Below are positions 2,588 through 20,697 of a DNA stretch of 22,856 nt, in pieces. The stretch covers positions 1 to 22,856 of IMG/VR virus record IMGVR_UViG_3300000553_003571; one strand, given 5' to 3'. Numbering within the stretch: the first letter of the stretch is position 1; each line of letters begins with the position of its first letter. The notes below the pieces were generated by a model. It was not told the DNA's origin, did not search any database, and was given only the letters and a program-made list of their open reading frames with translations. The position numbers and the translations under genes were made by a program. Origin of the DNA: a virus.

Positions 2588-2896
2588 ATGAAATATTACT
2601 ACAAAATTTTTATCAATGAAGGATATGAAGAATCTTTAAAATCAATCAATGCACCTGAAAGTTTTTTGACATCATTAAAAGAAAGTTCATCTTTTAATGC
2701 CAATATTGAAGATGGAATGACCGATTTTTATGTTGGTTATGATATTGATCAAGTTAGAAAAGGTAAACCAGACGATGCTTGGACTTGGTGCTCAATCAAA
2801 AACTATTATAAAGTTAATTGGACATATAAGGGTGAACTTCATCACAAGAGGAAAGATGCAGTTACCAAATTGAAAAAATTATGGGAAAATGAGTGA
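2588..2896 (+). CDS. Small hypothetical protein
   Basis: A 102-residue protein of unknown function beginning MKYYYKIFINEGYEES. It has an aromatic middle (DAWTWCSIKNYYKVNW, residues about 61-76) and a basic end containing KLKKLWENE. The last feature resembles the tail shared across the block. It is the first gene after a possible promoter at 2556-2563, so it may start a sub-operon. The next gene overlaps its stop by 8 bases. Confidence 0.6.
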   Translation: MKYYYKIFINEGYEESLKSINAPESFLTSLKESSSFNANIEDGMTDFYVGYDIDQVRKGKPDDAWTWCSIKNYYKVNWTYKGELHHKRKDAVTKLKKLWENE

Positions 2897-3050
2897 TCAT
2901 AAATTAATTGGTAGATGTGGAAAATATTTACCAAATTGTTATATAATTAAGCAAGGTAATAGGGAGTTCTATCTCAAAGACTACCAATTACCTTTTATTT
3001 TTTCCATTAAAGAAATTCGCAAGTTTAAATTGCGGGAAATCCAAAAATAA
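2889..3050 (+). CDS. Very small hypothetical protein with basic tail
   Basis: A 53-residue frame beginning MSDHKLIGRCGKYLPN at ATG 2889, overlapping the preceding stop in the same style as its neighbours. It reads as short beta strands and ends IRKFKLREIQK, which fits the basic C-terminal motif of this block. That shared tail and the overlap are the main evidence that it is real. Function unknown. Confidence 0.5.
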   Translation: MSDHKLIGRCGKYLPNCYIIKQGNREFYLKDYQLPFIFSIKEIRKFKLREIQK

Positions 3051-3059
3051 ATAAAATTA

Positions 3060-3248
3060 ATGAAAGCAAAATGTAAAGTGGACTACGGTCAATTTGAAAT
3101 CAACAAAAAATACAATTATTCCTACCAAAACAACACAAGAAAATATCATGTGGACGGTGATTATAGTAAAACAGAATTTACTAAAAAACAATTCGATTCA
3201 ATGTTTATAACAGAAAATATAAATAGAAATGAAAAGAATGTGTATTGA
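3060..3248 (+). CDS. Very small hypothetical protein
   Basis: A 62-residue protein beginning MKAKCKVDYGQFEINKKY, likely a small beta-rich domain given the alternating hydrophobic pattern and many Tyr residues. It starts 10 bases after the preceding stop. The next gene begins 20 bases before its end. Its own C-terminus lacks the basic K-L-K-K tail. No function is recognised. Confidence 0.5.
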   Translation: MKAKCKVDYGQFEINKKYNYSYQNNTRKYHVDGDYSKTEFTKKQFDSMFITENINRNEKNVY

Positions 3249-3417
3249 TTGGCAAAATGAACCTTGTATGAATAATTTTTGTTCACATAGAAAACTACAT
3301 GAAGAAGGTGCTGGTTGTGATATACGATGTGATTTTGTCAATCAATCAAATCCCTGTCAATTAATTTCAAAAATCAGAAAAACAAAAATTAAAAAAATTA
3401 CTACATCAATAAAATGA
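3229..3417 (+). CDS. Small Cys-rich protein, probable metal binder
   Basis: A 62-residue protein with six Cys (residues 5, 13, 18, 29, 33, 43) and two His in the first two thirds. Spacings such as C-x4-C and C-x3-C suggest a structural zinc site. It ends RKTKIKKITTSIK, the basic tail of the block. It overlaps the neighbouring gene on each side. The metal-binding role is inferred from Cys content only. Confidence 0.55.
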   Translation: MKRMCIDWQNEPCMNNFCSHRKLHEEGAGCDIRCDFVNQSNPCQLISKIRKTKIKKITTSIK

Positions 3418-3728
3418 GTAAAATGTATAAAATTGGTGATAGAGTTATTTTTAAAGCTCAAGCATATAAACAATATGCTTGGAGATTAAATGATTTTGAA
3501 GAGTATACCATAATAAATAAGGCACTTTCAAATGAGAATAGTACCGATTATATACCAAACACAATATATTATGTTGTTAAAGATAATAATGGAAATGAAA
3601 CAACTTGGTTTGAATATGACATTAATAGTTTAGGTGCATATATTCCTTCTGATGAAGGTGGTTATTATAATTTTTGTTCATTAAAACAATTTAGAAAACA
3701 AAAACTTAAAAGATTAATGTTATTTTAA
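3414..3728 (+). CDS. Small hypothetical protein, possible SH3-like fold
   Basis: A 104-residue protein beginning MSKMYKIGDRVIFKAQ. The K-I-G-D-R-V-I-F opening is typical of small SH3-like or KOW-like barrels, and similar to the 1610-1855 product. It has aromatic strands in the centre (TIYYVVKDNNGNETTWFEYD) and ends FRKQKLKRLMLF, one of the clearest examples of the shared basic tail. It overlaps the previous stop by 4 bases (ATGA). Function unknown. Confidence 0.6.
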   Translation: MSKMYKIGDRVIFKAQAYKQYAWRLNDFEEYTIINKALSNENSTDYIPNTIYYVVKDNNGNETTWFEYDINSLGAYIPSDEGGYYNFCSLKQFRKQKLKRLMLF

Positions 3729-6436: not shown

Positions 6437-6874
6437 TTATTTTTTGCCTTTTGTAGCCATTTCTTGAAATTTGGACTTTCCATATTTTTTACGACCAATC
6501 GCAGCAGCACAAGCATCAGAATCTTTAACACCTTTCTTTTTTAATTTACCAGAAAGTTCTTTAAATCTTTCACCTGAACCTAACCTGGCTTTTTCCTGAA
6601 TAACATCCTTAGCAACTTCTGTACGCTTAGTTTTCTTTGGATCTTTTAATAATTCAGTTTCTGTATATGAATCAAGACTAATAAGATTATTCAAATCTTT
6701 TTTCTTAATCTCATCTCTAGTTTTAGGTTTTTCAACAGGTACTTTACCTGTATTTTCTTGAAGAATATCCTTTGCAACATCTGTACGCTTTGTTGTCTTT
6801 GTTTTCTTAGTAAAATCACCTTCTGAAAAATCTTTCATTCCAAGGAGATTATTTAATTTTTTGTCTTTTGACAT
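6437..6874 (-). CDS. Two-module LNNL protein with basic C-terminal motif
   Basis: A 145-residue basic protein. It has an internal duplication: module 1 (about 6-40) contains LNNLLGMKDF and TKRTDVAKDILQE, and module 2 (about 60-95) contains LNNLISLDSY and TKRTEVAKDVIQEK. A third copy of the module is the protein at 18345-18575. The C-terminus (101-145) has RFKELSGKLKKKGVKDSD and AAAIGRKKYGKSKFQEMA, a basic motif that I recall in small phage and mobile-element proteins with no assigned role. It sits between tail and tagged genes, and its leader carries a TAATATATA promoter-like core. It is probably virion-associated; this is inferred from context only. Confidence 0.65.
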   Translation of the reverse strand: MSKDKKLNNLLGMKDFSEGDFTKKTKTTKRTDVAKDILQENTGKVPVEKPKTRDEIKKKDLNNLISLDSYTETELLKDPKKTKRTEVAKDVIQEKARLGSGERFKELSGKLKKKGVKDSDACAAAIGRKKYGKSKFQEMATKGKK

Positions 6875-6896: not shown

Positions 6897-6915
6897 CTCT
6901 ATATATTAATTTTTA
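6897..6915 (-). promoter_or_regulatory. Candidate phage promoter, ATTAATATATA core
   Basis: On the minus strand AAAAATTAATATATAGAG lies about 25-40 bases before the start at 6874. The same core lies before the genes starting at 8593, 17669 and 18575. Confidence 0.4.
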
Positions 6916-6926
6916 ATTCAAATTTT

Positions 6927-7283
6927 TTATAAATTATATTTATCTGCTTCTAACATTGCAACAAGAAAATCATATGCATCTTCTAAAATATCAGTTTCAT
7001 ATAATATATCTAAATCTTTAATGAGTAAAGTACCTTCATCCTCTTCATCTTCAAATCTATTATATCCTACACTATATTTATATCTTAATATAAGATCAAT
7101 TATTTCATCTCCGAGTTTAGAAATTTCACCATATTTCACAACTTCCCAAACATATATATTTTCTTCTTCTTTCCTCGCATCATCAACAATATATTTTTTA
7201 TAAATTTTTTTCTTTTTCTGCCGGTAACGGTTAATAGCCATACTCTGCCATGTGTGTATTTCAAATAATTTAAGATATTTCAT
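6927..7283 (-). CDS. Tagged small acidic protein (MK..LFE start, KYNL end)
   Basis: A 118-residue protein of unknown function. The first residues, MKYLKLFEIHTW, follow the MK....F.E pattern of T4 capsid-targeting sequences, and it ends ADKYNL, a C-terminus shared with three other proteins here. Between them lies a basic stretch (RQKKKKIYKKY) and an acidic middle with EDEEDEG. It is translationally coupled to the preceding gene (TAATG, sharing one base). Delivery into the phage head is inferred from the N-terminus alone; cleavage after LFE would fit the T4 protease rule. Confidence 0.6.
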   Translation of the reverse strand: MKYLKLFEIHTWQSMAINRYRQKKKKIYKKYIVDDARKEEENIYVWEVVKYGEISKLGDEIIDLILRYKYSVGYNRFEDEEDEGTLLIKDLDILYETDILEDAYDFLVAMLEADKYNL

Positions 7284-7486
7284 TATAATTGTAAATTCTT
7301 TTTGATCTGATTACCTTTCAATTTTTCAGTTTTTTTTGAGCCATCTTCATAGTAAATAACTATTTCGAATTCATCAAATTTTAATCCAAAATCTTGATAT
7401 TCAATTGTATTATAATTAGCACAAAGAATTACCACATTTTTATTGTGATAAAACCCCCTACGACCAATATAATATTCTTTAAACAC
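7283..7486 (-). CDS. Small hypothetical protein, GTG start
   Basis: A 67-residue protein starting at GTG 7486, directly coupled to a possible 17-residue frame upstream and to the next gene downstream. It begins FKEYYIGRRGFYHNKNV and appears all-beta, with a strand FEIVIYYEDGSKK (about 41-53). It ends KKNLQL, a weak echo of the KYNL end of its neighbours. No family is recognised. Confidence 0.55.
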   Translation of the reverse strand: MFKEYYIGRRGFYHNKNVVILCANYNTIEYQDFGLKFDEFEIVIYYEDGSKKTEKLKGNQIKKNLQL

Positions 7487-7539
7487 TAATTTAATTTACT
7501 TTTTTTTATTTCACTTTCAACTCGATTTTGTCTTTTCAT
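7486..7539 (-). CDS. Possible 17-residue coupling peptide
   Basis: A minimal frame reading MKRQNRVESEIKKSKLN. Its ATG overlaps the TGA of the vWA gene (ATGA), and its TAG overlaps the GTG of the next gene (TAGTG). This double coupling suggests that it carries ribosomes across an otherwise non-coding 49-base gap. It may have no function as a peptide. Confidence 0.25.
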   Translation of the reverse strand: MKRQNRVESEIKKSKLN

Positions 7540-8102
7540 AAATTATATTTTTGTGCTGCTTTTTTTAATTCATATTCTTCTGGCGTTATATCTCTTGGTC
7601 TGTAAAAATGATCAAGTGATTCTAAATCATTTATAAAAACCGAAATACCATGATAAGTGTCCTTTGCATGTAAGACATTTCGAAATCCATTATTAATAAG
7701 TATCGGCTCCTTTTCGGTACATAAAATTGCAATATCATTTGGTAATTTTTTTACATCAATTTCAATATAACCATCTGTAAACAACAAAATATCTCCTTGA
7801 AGTTTATTTTTAATGATATAATCTATTCCTGCTTGTATAGTTCCACCATCTTGAGAAATTTTTCCTTGTTGTATCCTTTTAATTAAAGAATCTAAAGATA
7901 TATTATTTAAAACTTCATCAACTTGATTGCTACACAAAATAGCAATAAATTTATCGGATAAATAAAAATTTATATTATCGATCATTTTTTTTAAAGTTGA
8001 CACAAAAGAAGCAGATGAATCGATTAAAAATATCTTATTTTTAACATCATTTTGATAAATATCCTTGTGATTTACTTCTTCAAAAGTTCTTATATGTTTC
8101 AT
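7536..8102 (-). CDS. von Willebrand factor A (vWA)-like protein with CTS-like start and KYNL end
   Basis: This 188-residue protein is a single vWA domain with an intact metal-ion site: DSSAS (28-32, D-x-S-x-S), GGT (86-88) and TDG (109-111). Such domains bind a divalent metal and a protein partner. The N-terminus MKHIRTFEEVNHKD resembles a T4 capsid-targeting sequence, and the protein ends AAQKYNL. It lies 8 bases downstream of the LNEV-repeat gene in the same operon. A role in assembling or regulating a multi-protein complex is likely from the fold; packaging in the head is inferred. The partner may be among the tagged neighbours. Confidence 0.75.
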   Translation of the reverse strand: MKHIRTFEEVNHKDIYQNDVKNKIFLIDSSASFVSTLKKMIDNINFYLSDKFIAILCSNQVDEVLNNISLDSLIKRIQQGKISQDGGTIQAGIDYIIKNKLQGDILLFTDGYIEIDVKKLPNDIAILCTEKEPILINNGFRNVLHAKDTYHGISVFINDLESLDHFYRPRDITPEEYELKKAAQKYNL

Positions 8103-8110
8103 ATTTTTAT

Positions 8111-8593
8111 TTATTTTGGTAAAATTCTTCTTGCAATTGTCATCATTGAATTATATCTTGCTTTTTCAAACATTTCCAATGTAATAACATCTGAATCTTT
8201 AAAATTTACAACTTCATTTAACGAGTCTAATTCTTGATTCTTTTTAACTTCATTAAGTCTTTCTTTACGAAGATTTTCCATTACTTCATTTAATCTATCA
8301 TCTTTCTCTTGTCTCTTTACTTCATTCAAAAGTTGACCATTTACTCTAGTCTCAATAACAAATTCATTTAGATTCATATCTTGTGAATATCTCGATCTTT
8401 GTACTTCATTAATATTAGGTATAGTCGGTTCATTATAAAAATTATTATAATTTGGTACTTCCCTTATCATTTGGTTTTCATTGAATGATGTTGCATTACC
8501 TCTTAATTGTTCAAAATTATAATCTTTTGTTTCAACTTTTTGTTGCTGAATTTGTTTAAATAAATTTAAATATTCTTGGTCTCTGTAATCCAT
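8111..8593 (-). CDS. LNEV-repeat protein, candidate head core protein or polyprotein
   Basis: A 160-residue helical, charged protein with L/I-N-E-V/F at residues 61 (INEV), 75 (LNEF), 89, 101, 113 and 125 (LNEV). The spacings are 14, 14, 12, 12 and 12. Related SFNEN and YNEP occur at 37-41 and 53-56. L/I-x-E is the cleavage rule of the T4 prohead protease gp21, so the repeats may be serial cut sites releasing 12-residue peptides, as T4 gp22 and gp67 yield internal peptides. The alternative is a row of docking motifs on a helix. It lies between the PRTase-like and vWA genes. No homologue is recognised; the role is a hypothesis. Confidence 0.65.
   Translation of the reverse strand: MDYRDQEYLNLFKQIQQQKVETKDYNFEQLRGNATSFNENQMIREVPNYNNFYNEPTIPNINEVQRSRYSQDMNLNEFVIETRVNGQLLNEVKRQEKDDRLNEVMENLRKERLNEVKKNQELDSLNEVVNFKDSDVITLEMFEKARYNSMMTIARRILPK
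8210..8413 (-). repeat. Coding repeat array, L/I-N-E-V/F every 12-14 residues
   Basis: Six motif copies; the last four are exactly 36 bases apart on the DNA. Leu codons and the residues between copies differ, so the motif is kept at protein level, more than as a recent DNA duplication. Confidence 0.7.
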
Positions 8594-8610
8594 TGGTTTT
8601 AATTATTTTC

Positions 8611-8628
8611 TGTATATATTAATTTTTA
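8611..8628 (-). promoter_or_regulatory. Candidate phage promoter before the LNEV gene
   Basis: The minus strand reads TAAAAATTAATATATACAG, 18-36 bases before ATG 8593. The core matches that upstream of 6874 and lies beside the solo transposon end at 8624-8667. Confidence 0.4.
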
Positions 8629-8667
8629 TAGAGCCCGTCAAAGAAAACAACTACATCTTTAGTGTAG
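8624..8667 (+). mobile_element. Solo left end of the TnpB element plus TTTTAT target
   Basis: These 44 bases are an exact reverse-complement copy of 22659-22702: TTTTAT, then a left end starting AGAGCCCGTC and ending in the hairpin CTACATCTTTAGTGTAG. No tnpB or right end follows; instead the sequence runs into the 3' end of the PRTase-like gene. It is best read as the scar of an insertion whose remaining part was lost. On the minus strand the hairpin plus T-rich stretch could also act as a terminator. Confidence 0.75.
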
Positions 8668-9340
8668 ATTTTAATTTGAAAGTTTTAATAACATTTAAAA
8701 GTTCTTTTACACTTCTAATTTCACCTTTCATTATTTTTGTTTCAATTATATCGTAAGGTATATTTTCTGAAAAACTATTCAAAATAGAAACTAGTTTTTT
8801 AATTGGTAGCACATCATCACTATGATAATCATAATATCTATAAATTGAATAAACATTTGACTTTTTTTGAAAACTGCCATCATAAATTACATAAGTCTTA
8901 ATAATTTTAGAACCATATTTTTTAAGATTTTTTTCTATTTCTTCTTGTGTTGAACCTGAATAATAACTATCGTCCAATAAAACAAAATCCTTGTTATACA
9001 TATCATCTTCTTTACCTTGTATAACTTGAAATGTTCTATTTTTTATAGAGGATCTTAATGAACCTGTAATGTGAATAACTGTACCATTAATTTTAGTTTT
9101 ACCAGTTTTTATTAAATTATAAACCCAATCACCAAAATTACCACTTAAAATTAAATTAAAATTTTTACCCTGCTCATGATATATCACATTTATAAGATTT
9201 AAAATCAAATCAGAATTTTTTGGATTTCTGATAAATTCATCAATTTTATCAAAAAAACTAACTCCACCTTCTGATTTCTTTTTCTTCAAATCATTGACAA
9301 CATCTATAATCTTATTCTTATCTTTTGCTAATAAATCCAT
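8651..9340 (-). CDS. Phosphoribosyltransferase-like protein, 3' end replaced by transposon end
   Basis: A 229-residue protein with a type I PRTase core. The PRPP-binding loop is DFVLLDDSYYSGST (118-131), preceded by strands FNLILSGNFGDW (61-72) and TVIHITGSL (87-95). PRTases of this fold make or break N-glycosidic bonds with PRPP; the substrate cannot be told. It starts 8 bases after the radical SAM gene. The last residues (STLKM) and stop are encoded by the solo left end at 8630-8667, so the original C-terminus is probably lost, perhaps including a KYNL end like its neighbours. The core motifs are intact, so it may still be active. Confidence 0.7.
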   Translation of the reverse strand: MDLLAKDKNKIIDVVNDLKKKKSEGGVSFFDKIDEFIRNPKNSDLILNLINVIYHEQGKNFNLILSGNFGDWVYNLIKTGKTKINGTVIHITGSLRSSIKNRTFQVIQGKEDDMYNKDFVLLDDSYYSGSTQEEIEKNLKKYGSKIIKTYVIYDGSFQKKSNVYSIYRYYDYHSDDVLPIKKLVSILNSFSENIPYDIIETKIMKGEIRSVKELLNVIKTFKLKSTLKM

Positions 9341-9348
9341 ATTACATT

Positions 9349-10629
9349 TTATAAATTATATTTTTTTACATCTCTTATAAAAAGTAATTCATCTAAAAAT
9401 TCATCTTTTCTAGCGTCAGGTATAGATACAATAATATACTCATCCTTCAATCTTTGTTTAATCTTAAAATTTTTAGATAATTTACGGTATTCTTTTTTAG
9501 TGATTTTTGCAATTGCTATAGGACTTTCTTTTTTCAAATCACTTTTTAAAAAAACTTCATAAGGACCATCTTCATTATAAATTGAAGGACCACATCCATA
9601 ACTCCCACCGCAACCTTCAACTGTACTATGACCACAACCATCACCACAACCATCACTAAAACCTGAATTTGAATCATCTGAACCACAACCTTCACTAAAA
9701 CCTGAATTTGAATCATCTGAACCACAACCACCTCCATCACTAGAACCACCACATTCAAAAATACCTCTAATAAGACTTTCATTTATTCTATTATAATCAA
9801 CTTTGAGTTTACCTTTCCAATCTTTGGTTACATCACCATTTTCATTAACAATTAATTCATAAATTGTTCCACCTAATTCCTTAGATGGCTCTTCTAATGA
9901 GGCTTTCCAAGAAACTTTTATTCCACCAATTAATTGATTCTTAGTACGACAAACTGGACAATGATACTCACTTGATTTATAACTTTCATAAGCTTTTTCA
10001 ACCTCTGTCGGTTTTAAATCTCCGTGAGGTTTTCTAAAAAATACTTGTGATGCTCCACATTCTTTTGCAAATTGAAGATAATTCTCAATTTCATTTTTAG
10101 TATTTAAATGTTCATTCAAAACAGCACTAAAAGTAACATCAATGCCAACTTTATTTAATTCATTGGAAACTAATTTCAATTCGTCTTTTGTGAGCATTTT
10201 AGCCTTAAAAATAGAATCGTTAATCATATCATCAAAATGATGTCTTGAAATATTAACGTGATCAATTTTACCTTCCAATTTAGACACATAATCAATAAGT
10301 TTAGCACCATTTGAAGTTAAAACGGTATGTTTAAAAACTTTTTTATCAATAAAATTAAGAATACTTTCAAGATGAGGACTTAATGTTGGTTCACCTCCTG
10401 TAAGACTTAGTTGATAGAATTGTACCGGCAAATTACTTAAAATATTATTTAATTTTTCTAAATAATTATTACATGGTGTTGATTTTTTCCAAAAACAAAA
10501 ATCACATTTACCATTACAGCCACCTGGTACAACAATAGATAAATTTGGATTTAGAATTGTTGTTTCAAAAATCTTTTCTTCATTGATTTTTGATTCTTTT
10601 ACATAATTTTCATATCGTTTTAACATCAT
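9349..10629 (-). CDS. Radical SAM protein with Gly/Cys/Ser-rich insert, CTS-like start and KYNL end
   Basis: A protein of 426 residues. The N-terminus MLKRYENYVKESKINEE resembles a capsid-targeting sequence with an INE cut site. The radical SAM core has CxxxCxxC (C38, C42, C45 in GGCNGKCDFCFW) and GGEP (78-81), with SRHHFDD near 128, and should reduce S-adenosylmethionine to a 5'-deoxyadenosyl radical. A CPVC motif follows at about 223-226. Residues about 292-346 form an insert with seven Cys and many Gly, Ser and Asp, including a 13-residue tandem repeat (SDDSNSGF). A basic domain follows, ending VKKYNL. The insert could bind extra Fe-S clusters or be a built-in substrate resembling a RiPP core. 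The substrate is unknown. Radical SAM fold sure. Confidence 0.85.
   Translation of the reverse strand: MMLKRYENYVKESKINEEKIFETTILNPNLSIVVPGGCNGKCDFCFWKKSTPCNNYLEKLNNILSNLPVQFYQLSLTGGEPTLSPHLESILNFIDKKVFKHTVLTSNGAKLIDYVSKLEGKIDHVNISRHHFDDMINDSIFKAKMLTKDELKLVSNELNKVGIDVTFSAVLNEHLNTKNEIENYLQFAKECGASQVFFRKPHGDLKPTEVEKAYESYKSSEYHCPVCRTKNQLIGGIKVSWKASLEEPSKELGGTIYELIVNENGDVTKDWKGKLKVDYNRINESLIRGIFECGGSSDGGGCGSDDSNSGFSEGCGSDDSNSGFSDGCGDGCGHSTVEGCGGSYGCGPSIYNEDGPYEVFLKSDLKKESPIAIAKITKKEYRKLSKNFKIKQRLKDEYIIVSIPDARKDEFLDELLFIRDVKKYNL
9653..9729 (-). repeat. Tandem duplication in the Gly/Cys insert
   Basis: Two identical 38-base copies, 9653-9690 and 9692-9729, with a 39-base period encode two 13-residue units S-[DE]-G-C-G-S-D-D-S-N-S-G-F. 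The exact DNA identity implies a recent in-frame duplication. Confidence 0.85.
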
Positions 10630-10675
10630 TAAATTATATTTTTTTGTAAGTGCTTCATTTGATTTATATATTATT

Positions 10676-11506
10676 TTAAAAATTCTTAATTATATTATAA
10701 ACCTGATCTCCAAAATAAGTTGCACTTGTTGCATCAAAATGATAAGCATCAAGCAAAGTTCCTGCTGACATATTTACACAATGCGCATTTACATCTTCTG
10801 ACGCTATTTGAAATTGAGCAGCTTCCACAGTAGCATTATATTGTGCAGAAGCACGAGATATACTTCCATACACTATCGGTAAAGTTGAATTTCCAACTAT
10901 TGTATTTCGTATATAATAAATAACATCTTTAAAATTTTGATAATAAGCATCCGCTGCTGTTTGTGGTAAATAATCACCTTCACCTTGATGCCATAGTATT
11001 GATTTGACATTTAATGTTTTTCCAATACTTGTAGCATAAGTGACTGCCGATTGATAATACCATTGTAATTCTTGAAGTAAAACATTTCCAGTGGTGTATG
11101 TTGTTATGCCTGTAAAATCAGTATTCCAACATCCCTTCGTATCACCAGATTGAATATATATCGCAGTTCCACCTTTAGTTCTTTTGACCATATATACTGT
11201 TGTATTCTTACCCACATAATAATCATGCATTGCAATCATATCAAATGCCCATGTTGTCTGTGTCCATACATCAGCACCTGAATTAACTCCCAATTTAAAA
11301 TCGTTGAATTGATGTGGCGTTAAATTAATATTCCACATTTTAACTCCTGTTACAGTTGGATTAGATTGATTTAACCAAGATGGTGCATTTACCAATAATA
11401 CTCTACCATCAGCATTAGATTGACCAGCAATCAAAAATGTTGTTAAATTATTTGTAGGTGGTGTAACTACTTTACCTATACTATCTAAAAATCCATATAA
11501 TTGCAT
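10676..11506 (-). CDS. SGNH/sialate O-acetylesterase-like esterase, tail-associated
   Basis: A 276-residue protein with the esterase blocks of the SASA/CE6-like family: AGQSNADGR (27-35) with nucleophile Ser30, WHQGEGD (172-178) forming the oxyanion block, and DAYHFD (253-258) supplying Asp253 and His256. Such enzymes remove acetyl groups from polysaccharides. No signal peptide is seen; the short leader MQLYGFLDSIGKV is more like a virion attachment segment. It lies 14 bases after a tail-fibre-like gene, so it probably acts from the virion on host capsule or O-antigen during adsorption. The catalytic triad looks complete. The substrate is not known. Confidence 0.8.
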   Translation of the reverse strand: MQLYGFLDSIGKVVTPPTNNLTTFLIAGQSNADGRVLLVNAPSWLNQSNPTVTGVKMWNINLTPHQFNDFKLGVNSGADVWTQTTWAFDMIAMHDYYVGKNTTVYMVKRTKGGTAIYIQSGDTKGCWNTDFTGITTYTTGNVLLQELQWYYQSAVTYATSIGKTLNVKSILWHQGEGDYLPQTAADAYYQNFKDVIYYIRNTIVGNSTLPIVYGSISRASAQYNATVEAAQFQIASEDVNAHCVNMSAGTLLDAYHFDATSATYFGDQVYNIIKNF

Positions 11507-11520
11507 TTTTTAAATTTATT

Positions 11521-12960
11521 TTATGCTATTATGAATCTAGTGGCCGTACCACTATAATCTATCGCATTACTTGCTCTTCCATACTGGTCTAAGATATAAC
11601 CTGTTGTCCAATATCCAGAACCATGTGGTAATGATGGTATTATAACAGATGTTATAGTGTCAGAAACAGTTATACCTTGTAATGTACCACCACCACTTTT
11701 CCAAACAGTAACTAAATTTGTTGCTACTGTACCTGTACTTGTTACTGTATAAGTCACATTTATTGTATTACCCGAAGATAATGTTGTACCACTTGTTATA
11801 CCACTAGTTTGATATGAAATAATTGTAGGACCAGTAGTTGGGTCAAATGTTGAATAATTTGTTTTAAAATAAGTACTTATAGTAGATCTTTCTGTTGAAC
11901 TCATAGGTCTATTATAAATAATCATATCCCAAAAATATTTAATTCTTGAAGCAGACGATGTTGTTGTATTTACATATGTAGATAAAATATTAGTTAAACT
12001 TAAAGTTAATCCTGTTTTAGTACCAGTTAAAATTAGAGTATCATCAAAATATACTTCTGATGTTCCTGAAGTTTGATTCCATCCTAAAATATGAACACCA
12101 GCCAATTTATTATGAATGCCAGATCCAGCAGTTTGTGTAGTTAATAATGTATTGATATATGATGTATCTTTATCTCCAAACGATAAAGTTGTTCCTGTAA
12201 TATTTCTAAAAAGTGTATTTGTATTTGAAAATAATGGATCAAACTGAATCAATGAACTAACATACCAAGTAGTACCAGAAACAAATACTATCGAAGTACC
12301 ACCACTCAAATTTTCAGTTTTTCCAGTTGAATTAAAAACTAATCTATTATTTGTTAAATCAACTGTTGGTCTTGATGCATCTGTATTAGAATATAGACTA
12401 AACAAATCATTAAAAGTATTAACTATTTTTGTCACTTTTCCACTTGTTAGGTCAGTTAAAATATTAGAAGCACTATAATGAGCAATAGTATTTCCACTAT
12501 AAGGAATAATAGCAATAGGTTGATACACTCCTGTTTTTACTATCGAATAAGCAATAGTTCCATCCGGTTTATAAACAAACCAAAAATCATAAGTTGCATT
12601 AGTACCATCCATATCATTTCTGTTCATTTGAAAATTTGTATCAAAAGTTACAGTATATAACCTATTACAATTTATTTGCATGTATATCACATTTAATGGT
12701 ACTGCTGTACCACCAGTCACTGAAGTAAAAATTAAATTTGACCATTGATTATATGGTAAATAATATTTTGAAGATTCAAATGTTAAAGTTTGTACAAGAG
12801 ATCCAGCAGATAACGCAGTCACACCAGACAAAACATAACTTTTTAATGTATCAACCGTTGCTTTTTGACTACTTATAAATGATGCATCATCTATTACAAT
12901 ATAATTACTACCAGTAAGACCAGTAACACTATCTAATTGATTTATCCTTTTATTTGCCAT
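11521..12960 (-). CDS. Tail-fibre-like structural protein with LamG-like domain
   Basis: A 479-residue Thr/Ser-rich protein without Cys. The start MANKRINQLDSVTGLTGSNY, with VIDDAS and TVDTLKSYVL after it, is the usual attachment region of phage tail-fibre and baseplate proteins. The middle (about 170-370) reads as a concanavalin/LamG-like beta sandwich, with YFDDTLI and the closing pattern FWDMIIYNRPMSSTERST. The last 110 residues form an Ig-like or fibre-tip beta domain (TVTSTGTVATNLVTVW). Together with the esterase and DUF1566 genes downstream it forms a host-recognition module. It starts 9 bases after a 52-residue gene. The structural role is confident; the ligand is unknown. Confidence 0.8.
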   Translation of the reverse strand: MANKRINQLDSVTGLTGSNYIVIDDASFISSQKATVDTLKSYVLSGVTALSAGSLVQTLTFESSKYYLPYNQWSNLIFTSVTGGTAVPLNVIYMQINCNRLYTVTFDTNFQMNRNDMDGTNATYDFWFVYKPDGTIAYSIVKTGVYQPIAIIPYSGNTIAHYSASNILTDLTSGKVTKIVNTFNDLFSLYSNTDASRPTVDLTNNRLVFNSTGKTENLSGGTSIVFVSGTTWYVSSLIQFDPLFSNTNTLFRNITGTTLSFGDKDTSYINTLLTTQTAGSGIHNKLAGVHILGWNQTSGTSEVYFDDTLILTGTKTGLTLSLTNILSTYVNTTTSSASRIKYFWDMIIYNRPMSSTERSTISTYFKTNYSTFDPTTGPTIISYQTSGITSGTTLSSGNTINVTYTVTSTGTVATNLVTVWKSGGGTLQGITVSDTITSVIIPSLPHGSGYWTTGYILDQYGRASNAIDYSGTATRFIIA

Positions 12961-12969
12961 ATTGTTTGT

Positions 12970-13128
12970 TTACTCCCAAATTAAATTATCATTATCATTT
13001 AATGTGATTATATCAGTATTAGAATTATATATTACATAATTACCTATTGAATTTTCTATCAAAACAGATAAAATTCCACCACCTATTGAAATAATTAATC
13101 CATTAAGAGTTAATATTTTTGTTTCCAT
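12970..13128 (-). CDS. 52-residue protein upstream of the tail-fibre gene
   Basis: A short frame beginning METKILTLNGLIISIGGG and ending DNLIWE, with beta-like alternation and a Gly-rich turn. It starts 48 bases from the divergent 13177 gene, with an AT-rich leader, and ends 9 bases before the tail-fibre start, so the two are probably cotranscribed. It may be a small fibre-joining or tip protein; nothing in the sequence proves this. Confidence 0.5.
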   Translation of the reverse strand: METKILTLNGLIISIGGGILSVLIENSIGNYVIYNSNTDIITLNDNDNLIWE

Positions 13129-13143
13129 ATATTTATAGATTAT

Positions 13144-13160
13144 AATTTTTATATATATTA
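13144..13160 (+). promoter_or_regulatory. Candidate promoter of the 13177 gene
   Basis: AATTTTTATATATATTA lies 16-33 bases before ATG 13177. It resembles the TATATA core upstream of minus-strand genes such as 18310 and could also serve the divergent gene at 12970-13128. Confidence 0.35.
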
Positions 13161-13176
13161 AAAAATAAAATTAAAA

Positions 13177-13785
13177 ATGGATAAACCAAAAAAAGAAGAT
13201 TTTAGAGAATTATTTCAAGAAAATATAGACAAATTAAAAAGTCAAATAGAAGAAACACAAGATGAACTTGATTTTGATCCATCTGACTTTTTTCCAGATA
13301 AAAATGATATGGATCTCAATCTAAAAATTGAAATGCACGATTATGAAAAAGATTTAGAATTAATAAGAGAAGAATCTACGGAAACTTTGGAATGTCTTGC
13401 CAATCTTTATTTAGATGAAGAAATAATGAAAAATAAAAATATCAATAATATTTTAAGAAATGATGCTCTTGCACTTTCAGATTTGAAATTTTCAATATCT
13501 TGTTCTAAAAGGGGCTTAATTAATTTAATGCGTCAAATTGATAATGGTAGTGTTGATGCTGAATTATATCAAGCAGTTTCTTTATTTCAAAGAGAAATGA
13601 AAGAAGGTATTCAAATGCTTTATAAACTTCAAAAAGATATGAAAGAATTTTTCAAAGATTTAAAAAGTGAATTAAAAGAAATTAATGTCGGAGTAACCGA
13701 AAATTATGATAAATATAAAGATATGAGAATTGCCGATAGAGATATCAACAAAGCACTTGATAAAGCAATGAAAAAAGGAAAATAA
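13177..13785 (+). CDS. Helical hypothetical protein
   Basis: A 202-residue, almost entirely helical, charged protein. After an acidic segment (DFDPSDFFPDKNDMD, about 30-44) come long helices, with a predicted coiled coil near 140-170 (MYKLQKDMKEFFKDLKSEL). It is the only plus-strand gene inside the minus-strand block, and its stop abuts that of the convergent 13786-14151 gene. Small terminase subunits and scaffold or adaptor proteins can look like this, but no motif confirms either. Function unknown. Confidence 0.65.
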   Translation: MDKPKKEDFRELFQENIDKLKSQIEETQDELDFDPSDFFPDKNDMDLNLKIEMHDYEKDLELIREESTETLECLANLYLDEEIMKNKNINNILRNDALALSDLKFSISCSKRGLINLMRQIDNGSVDAELYQAVSLFQREMKEGIQMLYKLQKDMKEFFKDLKSELKEINVGVTENYDKYKDMRIADRDINKALDKAMKKGK

Positions 13786-14151
13786 TTACAAATTGTATTT
13801 TATAGCATCAAGATAATCAGATAATGATTCAGTATTTAATTGATAATCTATTATCATACAGATGTTTCCGTAATAATTTTCTGCCTTGATGGTAAATTTT
13901 TCTACAACTAAAAAATCTTTTAAATAATTCAAAAGTTTCAGCATTTGTTTAGATGAAGGTTCAGTTAAAATTTTAAATACAAAGATAAGACTAGTAGATT
14001 TGTCGCCAGCAGGTCCACGGCACCACCTGGGTACAAGTCTATGATCTTCCATTGTAAAATTACTAAAAAATTTTTCTGCCATAATTTGAGAAAAATTCTT
14101 AATTGTAATATTTTCAGATTCAAATAGTTCCGTAAAATGATGTACTTTCAT
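13786..14151 (-). CDS. Tagged small protein (MK..FTELFE start, KYNL end)
   Basis: A 121-residue protein of unknown function. It begins MKVHHFTELFESENI, fitting the capsid-targeting pattern with a possible cut after LFE, and ends DAIKYNL. Its KYNL is coded AAA TAC AAT TTG, not the AAA TAT AAT TTA used by the other tagged genes, so the ending is conserved as protein. The body looks alpha/beta, with RLVPRWCRGPAGDKSTS (about 38-54) and an FVFKILTEPS strand. It lies downstream of the DHH gene with a 39-base gap. Confidence 0.6.
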   Translation of the reverse strand: MKVHHFTELFESENITIKNFSQIMAEKFFSNFTMEDHRLVPRWCRGPAGDKSTSLIFVFKILTEPSSKQMLKLLNYLKDFLVVEKFTIKAENYYGNICMIIDYQLNTESLSDYLDAIKYNL

Positions 14152-14190
14152 TTAATGACACTCTAATTTTTTTACAATACTTTAAATGTT

Positions 14191-15771
14191 TCATTTCTTT
14201 AAAGACCAGATTTCAACTTTTTCTTTAGATTCAGGTTTAATATATTTACCATCCACCATGTTAAACATAATTTTAAAAATTCTTTTGAATTCTTTTCTTT
14301 GTGATTTACGAACTTCAGTTGCTTCACTATCATATAATTTATCCAAACCGAATTTGTCAGTTATCATTTTAAATAATTCGGTATCTTCAATTGGTTTATT
14401 TTCTTTAAAATATAAACTAGTTAAATCAGTAGGTTTAATAACATGATCTTCAATTTCTTCAAAATGAGTTTGTAACCAAATTTCATAGATTTTTTTCATC
14501 GTAGAATCCTTAAATTTAGATGATAAATTTTTTCTTTCTAGAAAATCACCATAACCATTAATTACAATGTAATTCAAAATTTCTCTTTCGTCACTTTCAG
14601 TTCTTGCTTCATCTTCAGTTCTAACATCTTCGATATCCATCAATTTCTTATTGACTTCTTCTGGTTTTACCGTAATAGGACCGCCTTCGTCTTCATTCCA
14701 AGGCATTGTTAATCCCCATTTTACACCAGAAATATCATTGATAATTTTATTTTTGAACATATCTAAAAACCTAACACCATCATATGCCTTTATGTGACAT
14801 TTTCCAAAAATATTTGAAATCGAACCAATTCCATAATGTCCACCTGCCTTTGTTCTTTCGTCTTGATATCCTAAATATTTTTCAAAATTCTTAACTAAAC
14901 CTTCTGTATATTTTCCTAAATCACTAATTGGATTACCATCTTTATCTTTAGGTAGATCTTCTTCTTTCATATCTTTGATTTTTGATCTTAAATCAGCAAC
15001 TTGTAAAGTATTACCGTATTGTAAAAGAACAAAATTTAATTTTGGATCATCAGGAACAATACCTTTTTCTAAATCTTGACTGAAAATTGCTTTTGCTCTC
15101 AGAGCATTTGCCCAAGTACCTGATGGAACATACATTAAATTACCAATAATTTGATAAACACCTGGTTTTAATTGAAATTTGTGATTTTCTGGTTGATCTG
15201 GAATAATTCTACCATCGTCATCATATTCTTTAAATGGTAAATCATTTGCAAAAGCGTTCCAAAAATCCTCTTGTTCTTCAAATCTAATTTTATGACCATT
15301 TTCGTCAAATCCTTGATTTTTATATCCTGAACCTTTGGTCTTATGTTTCATCATTGCTAATCTTATTTTAGCATCATCAACAAATCCAGGTTCATCACCA
15401 GTTTTCCAGTTAGGATTATTTTTCGGATAAAAAATCTTAAATAAACGATAAATATTATAAATTGATGGATGTTCACAGCCATTGACAACTTCTATAAAAG
15501 TTTTATAATCTGAACGTTTTAATAATTGATTCATTGAAGCGGCAAATTTTAATTTTGCTTTAGGATCTTTTTTTATTTGATTTAAATCAAAATCTAAAAT
15601 TCCTTTAATATCCACATCATAATCAGCATATTTTGCCGAATCTATCATATCAATCCAATCTTTAGTGTCATTTGAAAATGGTACACCTAATTGAGTTGCA
15701 ATACCTTCTGCTGCTGAACCTGTTTTAGTTTTAATTGCATATCCTTTTTGAGTGAGTACTTCATTCCTCGG
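14191..15771 (-). CDS. DHH/DHHA1 phosphoesterase, C-terminal part (after frameshift)
   Basis: This frame continues the protein begun at 16111. From the junction it reads NEVLTQKGYAIKTKTGSAAE and SAKYADYDVD, matching the late DHH motifs (S-A-A-E, then an Asp), and later KAGGHYGIGSIS, the GGH signature of DHHA1 domains. An internal ATG at 15648 gives 485 residues but would omit the S-A-A-E motif, so it is not a natural start. The C-terminal 200 residues are charged, with no recognised domain. The combined enzyme would be about 640 residues. DHH/DHHA1 proteins are Mn-dependent phosphoesterases acting on oligonucleotides or nucleotide messengers. It is functional only if the frame is bypassed or the break is an error. 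Confidence 0.7.
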   Translation of the reverse strand, partial: PRNEVLTQKGYAIKTKTGSAAEGIATQLGVPFSNDTKDWIDMIDSAKYADYDVDIKGILDFDLNQIKKDPKAKLKFAASMNQLLKRSDYKTFIEVVNGCEHPSIYNIYRLFKIFYPKNNPNWKTGDEPGFVDDAKIRLAMMKHKTKGSGYKNQGFDENGHKIRFEEQEDFWNAFANDLPFKEYDDDGRIIPDQPENHKFQLKPGVYQIIGNLMYVPSGTWANALRAKAIFSQDLEKGIVPDDPKLNFVLLQYGNTLQVADLRSKIKDMKEEDLPKDKDGNPISDLGKYTEGLVKNFEKYLGYQDERTKAGGHYGIGSISNIFGKCHIKAYDGVRFLDMFKNKIINDISGVKWGLTMPWNEDEGGPITVKPEEVNKKLMDIEDVRTEDEARTESDEREILNYIVINGYGDFLERKNLSSKFKDSTMKKIYEIWLQTHFEEIEDHVIKPTDLTSLYFKENKPIEDTELFKMITDKFGLDKLYDSEATEVRKSQRKEFKRIFKIMFNMVDGKYIKPESKEKVEIWSLKK

Positions 15772-16111
15772 AAAATTGGCCGTGATGATCTACATAATAA
15801 TCCACGCCTTTACCATCTGGTAATTGTATATTTTCCGCAAAATCTAATGCAATAGTAATCAATCTTGAATCAATTTTAAATCCTTGCCATCCCTCTTGAT
15901 AATTTATAAGTCCAATTTGCTTGATTTTAAATCCATGTTCTTTCAAATAATTTTTCATTATAACTCCAGAACAAATTCCATCTAAGTCATCGTGTATTAT
16001 AAGACACACATCTTTTCCTGATTTACCTCTTTTCTTCCAATATTCCTCACTATTAGGAAGTCTTGGTGCAGACTCATTTAACACCTCTAAATATTCATTA
16101 AAATTTTTCAT
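15761..16111 (-). CDS. DHH phosphoesterase, N-terminal part, CTS-like start
   Basis: A 116-residue frame with the DHH metal motifs: HDDLDGICSG (about 40-49), ALDF (89-92) and DHH (108-110). It stops six residues after DHH, where the family always continues. The N-terminus MKNFNEYLEVLNESAPRL is the closest match here to a T4 capsid-targeting sequence, with a cut site after LNE. Removing one A from the A-run at 15772-15775 (T on the coding strand) joins it to the downstream frame. Alternatively, a +1 ribosomal shift at GAA-TGA would do so. Its start overlaps the homing endonuclease gene by 14 bases. Confidence 0.75.
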   Translation of the reverse strand: MKNFNEYLEVLNESAPRLPNSEEYWKKRGKSGKDVCLIIHDDLDGICSGVIMKNYLKEHGFKIKQIGLINYQEGWQGFKIDSRLITIALDFAENIQLPDGKGVDYYVDHHGQFSEE

Positions 16112-18330: not shown

Positions 18331-18347
18331 TGTATATATAAAAATTA
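18331..18347 (-). promoter_or_regulatory. Candidate promoter of the 17774-18310 gene
   Basis: AATTTTTATATATACA on the minus strand, 21-37 bases before ATG 18310, overlapping the end of the preceding gene. It matches the core before 13177. Confidence 0.35.
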
Positions 18348-18575
18348 TCTTCTGAAATTTCTATTTTCTTTTACAACTTGTTTTGCGAGTCCATTACTAA
18401 CAGTTTTTGAATTATCAGAAACTTTTTTAATATCAACATCTTCACCTCTACCTTTTTGAGCAAGAACATCAAGTCCAGTTTCAGTTCTAGAAGTTTTTTT
18501 TGCGCCATCTGGTTTCCAATTATTATTTGTAAAATCATAGAAACTTACCAAATTGTTTAATTTATCTTTTGCCAT
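18345..18575 (-). CDS. Single-module LNNL protein
   Basis: A 76-residue protein whose first half (4-42) is a third copy of the LNNL module: DKLNNLVSFYDF, then KKTSRTETGLDVLAQKG. The two other copies are in the protein at 6437-6874, about 11.5 kb away. The second half is basic and ends KENRNFRR. It has a clear GAC-type promoter and is divergent from nadE. A shared binding role for the module is inferred. Confidence 0.6.
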   Translation of the reverse strand: MAKDKLNNLVSFYDFTNNNWKPDGAKKTSRTETGLDVLAQKGRGEDVDIKKVSDNSKTVSNGLAKQVVKENRNFRR

Positions 18576-20433: not shown

Positions 20434-20697
20434 ATGTCAATACTTTTAAAAAATCTAAAAGAAGGTGGATATTTTACTGTTTCATTTGATAGTTATGATC
20501 CATACAAAACAAAAGATCCAAATATTATTGAAATTCAAATTTTAATAAAATTAGAAAATTCAATAAAAATTAAAATTTTAGAAAAAAATGAAGTAAAGTG
20601 GTTTAGTAGCACTAAAATTATTCAATTTTACGACGAAATTCCAGTAAAATATTTTAGAAAAGAAAAACTTAAGAAATTAGAAGATATAGAAGAATGA
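20434..20697 (+). CDS. Small hypothetical protein with basic tail
   Basis: An 87-residue protein beginning MSILLKNLKEGGYFTVSF, with beta-rich sequence and the end YFRKEKLKKLEDIEE. That tail is the same basic motif found in the small genes at 1321-3728, 17 kb away, so it belongs to the same loose group. It lies 22 bases after nadE and 16 before folA and is probably cotranscribed with both. Function unknown. Confidence 0.6.
   Translation: MSILLKNLKEGGYFTVSFDSYDPYKTKDPNIIEIQILIKLENSIKIKILEKNEVKWFSSTKIIQFYDEIPVKYFRKEKLKKLEDIEE

Follow-up and report, generated by a model that had tools for sequence, protein, structure and literature searches.

Virus record IMGVR_UViG_3300000553_003571 of the IMG/VR database is a 22.9-kb fragment of a larger genome, and its whole length (22,856 nucleotides) is the window analysed here. 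Its minus strand carries four open reading frames (ORFs), at 6927-7283, 7536-8102, 9349-10629 and 13786-14151, whose products all terminate exactly in KYNL, as had been noticed in a sequence-only reading of this DNA, which proposed that unrelated proteins share a tag at both ends. Taken with the stop codon, this C-terminal tag (C-tag) lies on the minus strand at 6927..6941 in the gene of a 118-amino-acid (aa) protein, at 7536..7550 in that of a 188-aa protein, at 9349..9363 in that of a 426-aa radical SAM protein and at 13786..13800 in that of a 121-aa protein. The KYNL codons are not uniform, being AAATACAATTTG in the last of these genes and AAATATAATTTA in the other three. Since KYNL occurs 35 times inside proteins among the 573,359 residues of all contigs studied, about 0.003 such ends are expected among the 42 ORF ends of the window, against the four observed (P for four or more about 2e-12). 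The shared start, described earlier as MK or MLK followed by an F/Y-x-E pattern, is canonical in two of the proteins, MKYLKLFE (7260..7283, minus strand, hydrophobic at positions 4 and 7) and MKHIRTFE (8079..8102, minus strand), and looser in the other two, namely MMLKRYENYVKE of the radical SAM protein (10594..10629, minus strand) and MKVHHFTELFE of the 121-aa protein (14119..14151, minus strand). A DHH-family gene (14191-16111) shares the start only: its N-terminal tag (N-tag) MKNFNEYLEVLNE lies at 16073..16111 on the minus strand, and it has no KYNL end. This gene is broken in the window by a frameshift near 15757-15764, either natural or an assembly error, and the 485-aa ORF at 14191-15648 is its second part; it is unbroken in relatives, with a 632-aa ORF in contig G004 and a 640-aa ORF in G006. 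The vWA-like label that had been given to the 188-aa protein found no Pfam match here.

Searches with the 485-aa ORF brought up 30 IMG/VR contigs as well as the 735-kb phage LR756501, and those with the 67-aa protein at 7283-7486 bigger close relatives with sizes up to 330 kb; for the radical SAM and 188-aa proteins IMG/VR has no relatives. Across these genomes the C-tag is broader than KYNL, with the consensus [AST][NK]K[FY]N[LI] at the carboxyl end. KYNL ends three proteins of contig G001 and five of G006, which has two KYNI ends in addition. The largest counts come from two contigs in which ORFs of at least 60 aa were considered and the expectation was taken from the internal motif frequency: K[FY]N[LI] ends 102 of 543 ORFs in G034 (330 kb), where 0.11 are expected, and 55 of 414 in G032 (256 kb), where 0.16 are expected. 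The next commonest C-terminal tetrapeptide of G034 is seen just twice. A scan for tagged genes in tandem gave at least 120 stretches, and at least about 30 contigs hold two or more tagged ORFs. Ends of this kind at chance level in related genomes had been named as the outcome that would speak against the sequence-only reading; the opposite, a large excess, was found. Variation in orthologues is conservative (NFNL, QFNL, NFNM), and the aromatic residue goes by contig, being Y throughout in the window, G001 and G006, F in 92 of the 102 tags of G034, and mixed in some others. LamG-like tail proteins of G001 ending in QNYNALKTRFGL were considered as bearers of the same tail and rejected, as they are homologous to one another and have no N-tags. 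A higher conservation of the tag than of the bodies is not claimed either, because the protein set was chosen by the tag itself. A structural-protein array of G001 (L031:1048-15587) ends in QNYNAxKxRFGL/I, a C-terminal segment shared by two different repeat families.

The N-tag has the consensus MK[YH][IL]Kx[FY]E with hydrophobic residues at positions 4 and 7, and sequence logos built from the N-termini of 146 and 58 tagged proteins place the highest information at position 4 and at positions 7-8; 87 MK[YHTK] N-termini of the distant relatives G015 and G024 were included in the comparison. In T4 IPIII the first ten residues direct proteins to the prohead core, with positions 4 and 7 serving targeting and positions 8 and 10 processing (PMC9026906). 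The N-tag likewise has hydrophobic or aromatic residues at 4 and 7; positions 8-10 differ from T4. Both ends are strongly coupled. In G034 the N-tag is present on 86 of 102 C-tagged and on 55 of 441 other proteins (odds ratio 38, p=3e-45), and in G032 the association has an odds ratio of 33 (p=7e-25). Dozens of N-tagged proteins (MKYLKLFESF and alike) were also found in G015 (464 kb) and G024, where the C-tag and a second C-terminal motif treated below, RKxKLxKL, are both absent. Thus, the N-tag is the older and more widespread of the two, and the C-tag was added in the lineage of the window. Another common start, MKIRxGFVSNSSSSSF, belongs to several different proteins (G034 61590-67059, L071; G001 L035:17189-17722).

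The proteins between the tags are diverse. After trimming of both ends, 173 tagged proteins from six contigs fell into 69 body clusters, with domain matches to ankyrin repeats, leucine-rich repeats (LRR), radical SAM, SH3-like, ExoX-like, DMP19 and DUF4240; statistics and relatives alike thus strongly support a two-ended tag on unrelated bodies. For the two largest families, which have 50 and 23 members, AlphaFold predicts the bodies with confidence, as an SH3-like barrel and as ankyrin repeats; both tags come out at low confidence, with the C-tag closing a terminal helix. A comparison of the SH3-like family with the PDB gave no confident match (best E 0.04).

The window is a piece of a T4-like megaphage akin to the 735-kb Mahaphage-clade genome LR756501. 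The close relative G031 encodes a T4-type portal (PF07230, 212 bits), an S77/S80-type prohead protease (27 bits, S77) and a gp23-type major capsid protein (MCP) near one another on the same strand, and its MCP shares 57% identity with the LR756501 MCP and 47-51% with the MCPs of the 634-642 kb genomes of the Mahaphage clade. Scores of the gp23 profile in relatives range from 81 to 92 bits; protease and gp23 are present in G009 and G024, and gp23 in G015, whereas portal, protease and gp23 genes are absent from the window and G034 fragments. The MCPs of the relatives carry HS[IL]NE|N, in the position of the cleavage region of T4 gp23. Bacteroidetes are the predicted hosts of the Mahaphage clade (PMC7162821). 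A scan of the FKEYYIGRRG protein against genome contigs for a hint of the host gave no relative. A further query taken from the sequence matched none of 50,697 phage records.

Tagged genes also differ from others in what lies upstream of them. The motif TTAATATATA, which by its consensus would be a late-type promoter, stands, in 122 out of 241 cases, 10-35 nt upstream of a gene start, and it lies 21 nt ahead of the G031 portal gene, at the head of the portal-protease-MCP stretch. When operons are counted, 60 of 176 C-tagged and 40 of 79 N-tag-only genes lie behind it, compared with 21% of the rest; permuted versions of the motif reach 0 to 7%. The second C-terminal motif, RKxKLxKL, occurs 66 times in G034, 89 times in G032 and six times in the window, with 0.5-0.7 expected in the large contigs. 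It is found on small proteins (160 in 68 body clusters), never together with the K[FY]N[LI] tag, and none of 165 such genes lies behind TTAATATATA, against the 60 of 176 C-tagged genes (p=3e-20). Hence, these phages label two gene classes differently. In the window, RKxKLxKL genes lie on the plus strand at 1321-1623, 1610-1855, 2889-3050, 3229-3417, 3414-3728 (ending FRKQKLKRL) and 20434-20697. Copies of TTAATATATA on the minus strand are found at 6900..6909 before 6437-6874, at 8613..8622 before the operon 8111-8593 / 7536-8102, and at 13152..13161 before the operon holding the radical SAM gene and 7536-8102.

Further features of the window adjoin the tagged genes. The untagged neighbour at 8111..8593 (minus strand) has six [LI]NE[VF] repeats, spaced at about 12 residues and also present in relatives as a conserved feature; judged by these repeats it is a candidate scaffold or internal-peptide precursor cut repeatedly by the prohead protease, like T4 gp67/gp22 in kind. 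Directly upstream of the radical SAM gene, the minus-strand stretch 10630..10658 (ATGAAGCACTTAC...AAAAAATATAATTTA) encodes within 29 bases both MKHL and, in the adjacent frame, NEALTKKYNL, possibly the relic of a deleted tagged gene. The radical SAM protein itself contains a Cys/Gly/Ser-rich repeat stretch (CGSDDSNSGFSEGCGSDDSNSGFSDGCGDGCG), which is unexpected in an enzyme of this kind and may be a peptide region that undergoes self-modification. A KLNNL...RTxxxxD repeat domain is common to 6437-6874 (two copies) and 18345-18575 (one copy).

It seems to us an evenly balanced proposition that the tagged proteins are internal proteins of a T4-like megaphage, packaged in the capsid and probably ejected, which are addressed by N-tag and C-tag together. 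We regard the N-tag, with good though not full confidence, as a capsid-targeting sequence (CTS) of T4 type, and the C-tag as a second address. The residues at positions 4 and 7 are kept, but gp21-type cleavage sites are only modestly enriched in N-tags, although [ILV]xE junctions are kept in capsid proteins and in the DHH family, where they precede (E)[AS][AS]PR[LI]P, and the neighbour at 8111-8593 has its six [LI]NE repeats. The CTS of T4 IPI, IPII, IPIII and Alt resembles the N-tag in its length of about 10 residues, its MK start, its hydrophobic positions 4 and 7 and its diverse small bodies; moreover, the relatives of the window carry T4-type head genes, and the G034 starts MKTFNQYNE and MKTYQQFNE are near-identical to T4 MKTYQEFIAE (as quoted in the sequence-only reading). 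In contrast to T4, the Glu is here mostly at position 8 and not 10, about 100 proteins are tagged and not four, and a near-obligatory C-tag is added. T4 Alt is also processed C-terminally, but a shared C-terminal motif is not described there (PMC9026906).

For the C-tag, a second and lineage-specific address on the same cargo, read most likely by a head protein, is the likeliest role by analogy. A close parallel is found in encapsulins, where a short C-terminal peptide on unrelated cargo is bound by an HK97-fold shell (PMC8346489). The C-tag is likewise short, C-terminal and carried by unrelated bodies. However, [AST][NK]K[FY]N[LI] departs from the GSL-type consensus of cargo-loading peptides (SDGSLGIGSLKRS, PMC8346489), and in these phages the tag is paired with a CTS at the other end of the protein; shell binding is suggested by analogy. 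We infer head location, N-tag cleavage and a C-tag binding partner in the following way. Residues 4 and 7 of the N-tag would dock on the prohead core, and a gp21-like protease may remove some N-tag copies. The C-tag would be bound by one phage-encoded partner, likeliest a head component, either the scaffold or the interior surface of the gp23-type shell. After release of the N-tag this partner would concentrate or retain the cargo, in the manner known for encapsulin cargo-loading peptides. Phages of the SPN3US/phiKZ type also pack many different inner-body or ejection proteins with the DNA into a giant head, some with N-terminal propeptides (PMC10052503); these propeptides are mostly long and without a single motif, and the literature found reports no common C-terminal tag. 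The C-tag appears to be undescribed; no description of it, of RKxKLxKL or of the DPYGEExW motif discussed below was found in a partial literature, in which no search was aimed at the latter two.

Several points weigh against a capsid address at both ends. The enrichment of [LIV]xE, the gp21-type site, near the N-termini of tagged proteins is only about twofold (3.3% vs 1.7% per position), and KKFE|N, the commonest N-tag of G034, misfits the (L/I)xE cleavage rule of T4. An exact TTAATATATA does not stand directly ahead of the MCP genes of G024 or G015. In addition, a C-tag is lacking on the N-tagged proteins of the distant relatives and also on part of those in C-tagged genomes; packaging alone therefore needs no C-tag, and capsid targeting does not inherently involve one. 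The common address at two ends that had first been suggested is partly supported: the comparison with the T4 CTS fits, both in residues 4 and 7 of the N-tag and in the T4-type head genes of the relatives, and the capsid is a possible destination for the C-tag.

The main rival, which we hold to be unlikely, places the action of the C-tag after ejection: the N-tag would package the proteins, and the C-tag would take about 100 effectors to one host place or partner, such as the nucleoid, the membrane, the ribosome or a phage compartment. A lineage-specific addition over an older N-tag is in line with this, as are bodies that include protein-interaction repeats (ankyrin, LRR). Sites of the T4 gp21 type are, furthermore, not enriched ahead of the C-tag, and the tag may therefore remain on the protein after maturation. 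However, the strong association of C-tag and N-tag speaks for a single pathway. A signal for regulated degradation or quality control, for example for the removal of unpackaged cargo, seems improbable. Short hydrophobic C-terminal motifs are common bacterial degrons, and the C-tag is exactly C-terminal. It is, though, unlike the LAA tails of the ssrA type, and a degron would here label about one fifth of all proteins, nearly all of them N-tagged and many behind late-type promoters.

To a comparably small extent we consider that the shared ends are a feature of DNA or RNA, serving as recombination homology for cassette shuffling or in translational coupling. The possible fused-end relic at 10630-10658 would suit such an origin, and in the tandem arrays of G034 ATGA overlaps are found at 51 of 102 tagged against 33 of 406 untagged genes. 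Codon choice within the tag is also peculiar: in G034 and G032 the Asn codon is AAC in about half of the tags (51%) compared with about 9-14% elsewhere, and the Ile codon is nearly always ATA, a preference that holds also for G034 genes without an overlap with the next gene. Nevertheless, this explanation is largely refuted. One half of the tagged genes are free of overlap with a following gene and still have the same tag, overlapping untagged genes are without it, and F/Y, L/I and synonymous codons vary within it. A degenerate DNA pattern of the tag matched 119 times in G034, 102 of these being exact in-frame ORF ends, and the remaining 17 compare with 18 in the control; in G032 there were 74 matches, 58 exact in-frame ends and 16 remaining against 12. 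The pattern is thus enriched solely in frame at ORF ends. We also rejected the T4 late promoter TATAAATA, lying over the stop codon (TTA TAA ATA), as source of the shared tail, because the bases after the stop misfit and TATAAATA occurs elsewhere. Plain homology, that is, descent of all tagged proteins from one small ancestral protein with the ends left over, is very improbable and largely refuted: two paralogous families are indeed large, but 69 clusters have different folds (radical SAM, ankyrin, LRR, nuclease-like), and the tags sit in low-confidence ends of folded bodies.

LR756501 adds to this picture. It is among the closest sequenced relatives by MCP, yet the K[FY]N[LI] tag and RKxKLxKL are both missing from the 381 kb examined, and it has a different short repeated motif. 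In the first 381 kb of LR756501.1 (L271-L290), 36 of 523 ORFs contain 45 copies of (L/E)DPYGEExW, which often lie about 10 residues before the C-terminus or right after an N-tag and have varied codons; the motif is absent from all other contigs examined. DPYGEExW looks like another genome-wide linear motif. It is possible, although we would put this forward only tentatively, that a postal code extends through the clade, in which an old N-tag is combined with lineage-specific labels (K[FY]N[LI], RKxKLxKL, DPYGEExW), each with one reader, for about 100 proteins in one head that are delivered at infection.

Wherever the C-tag leads, it is rare for dozens of unrelated families to carry a single C-terminal label, and this speaks for a dedicated receptor. 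If the C-tag is indeed a head address, a search with this one motif would be enough to catalogue the proteins that a megaphage injects, with about 100 candidate effectors in one contig, and the peptide would be usable for loading foreign cargo into very large capsids. Many of the small megaphage genes of unassigned role would then be cargo.

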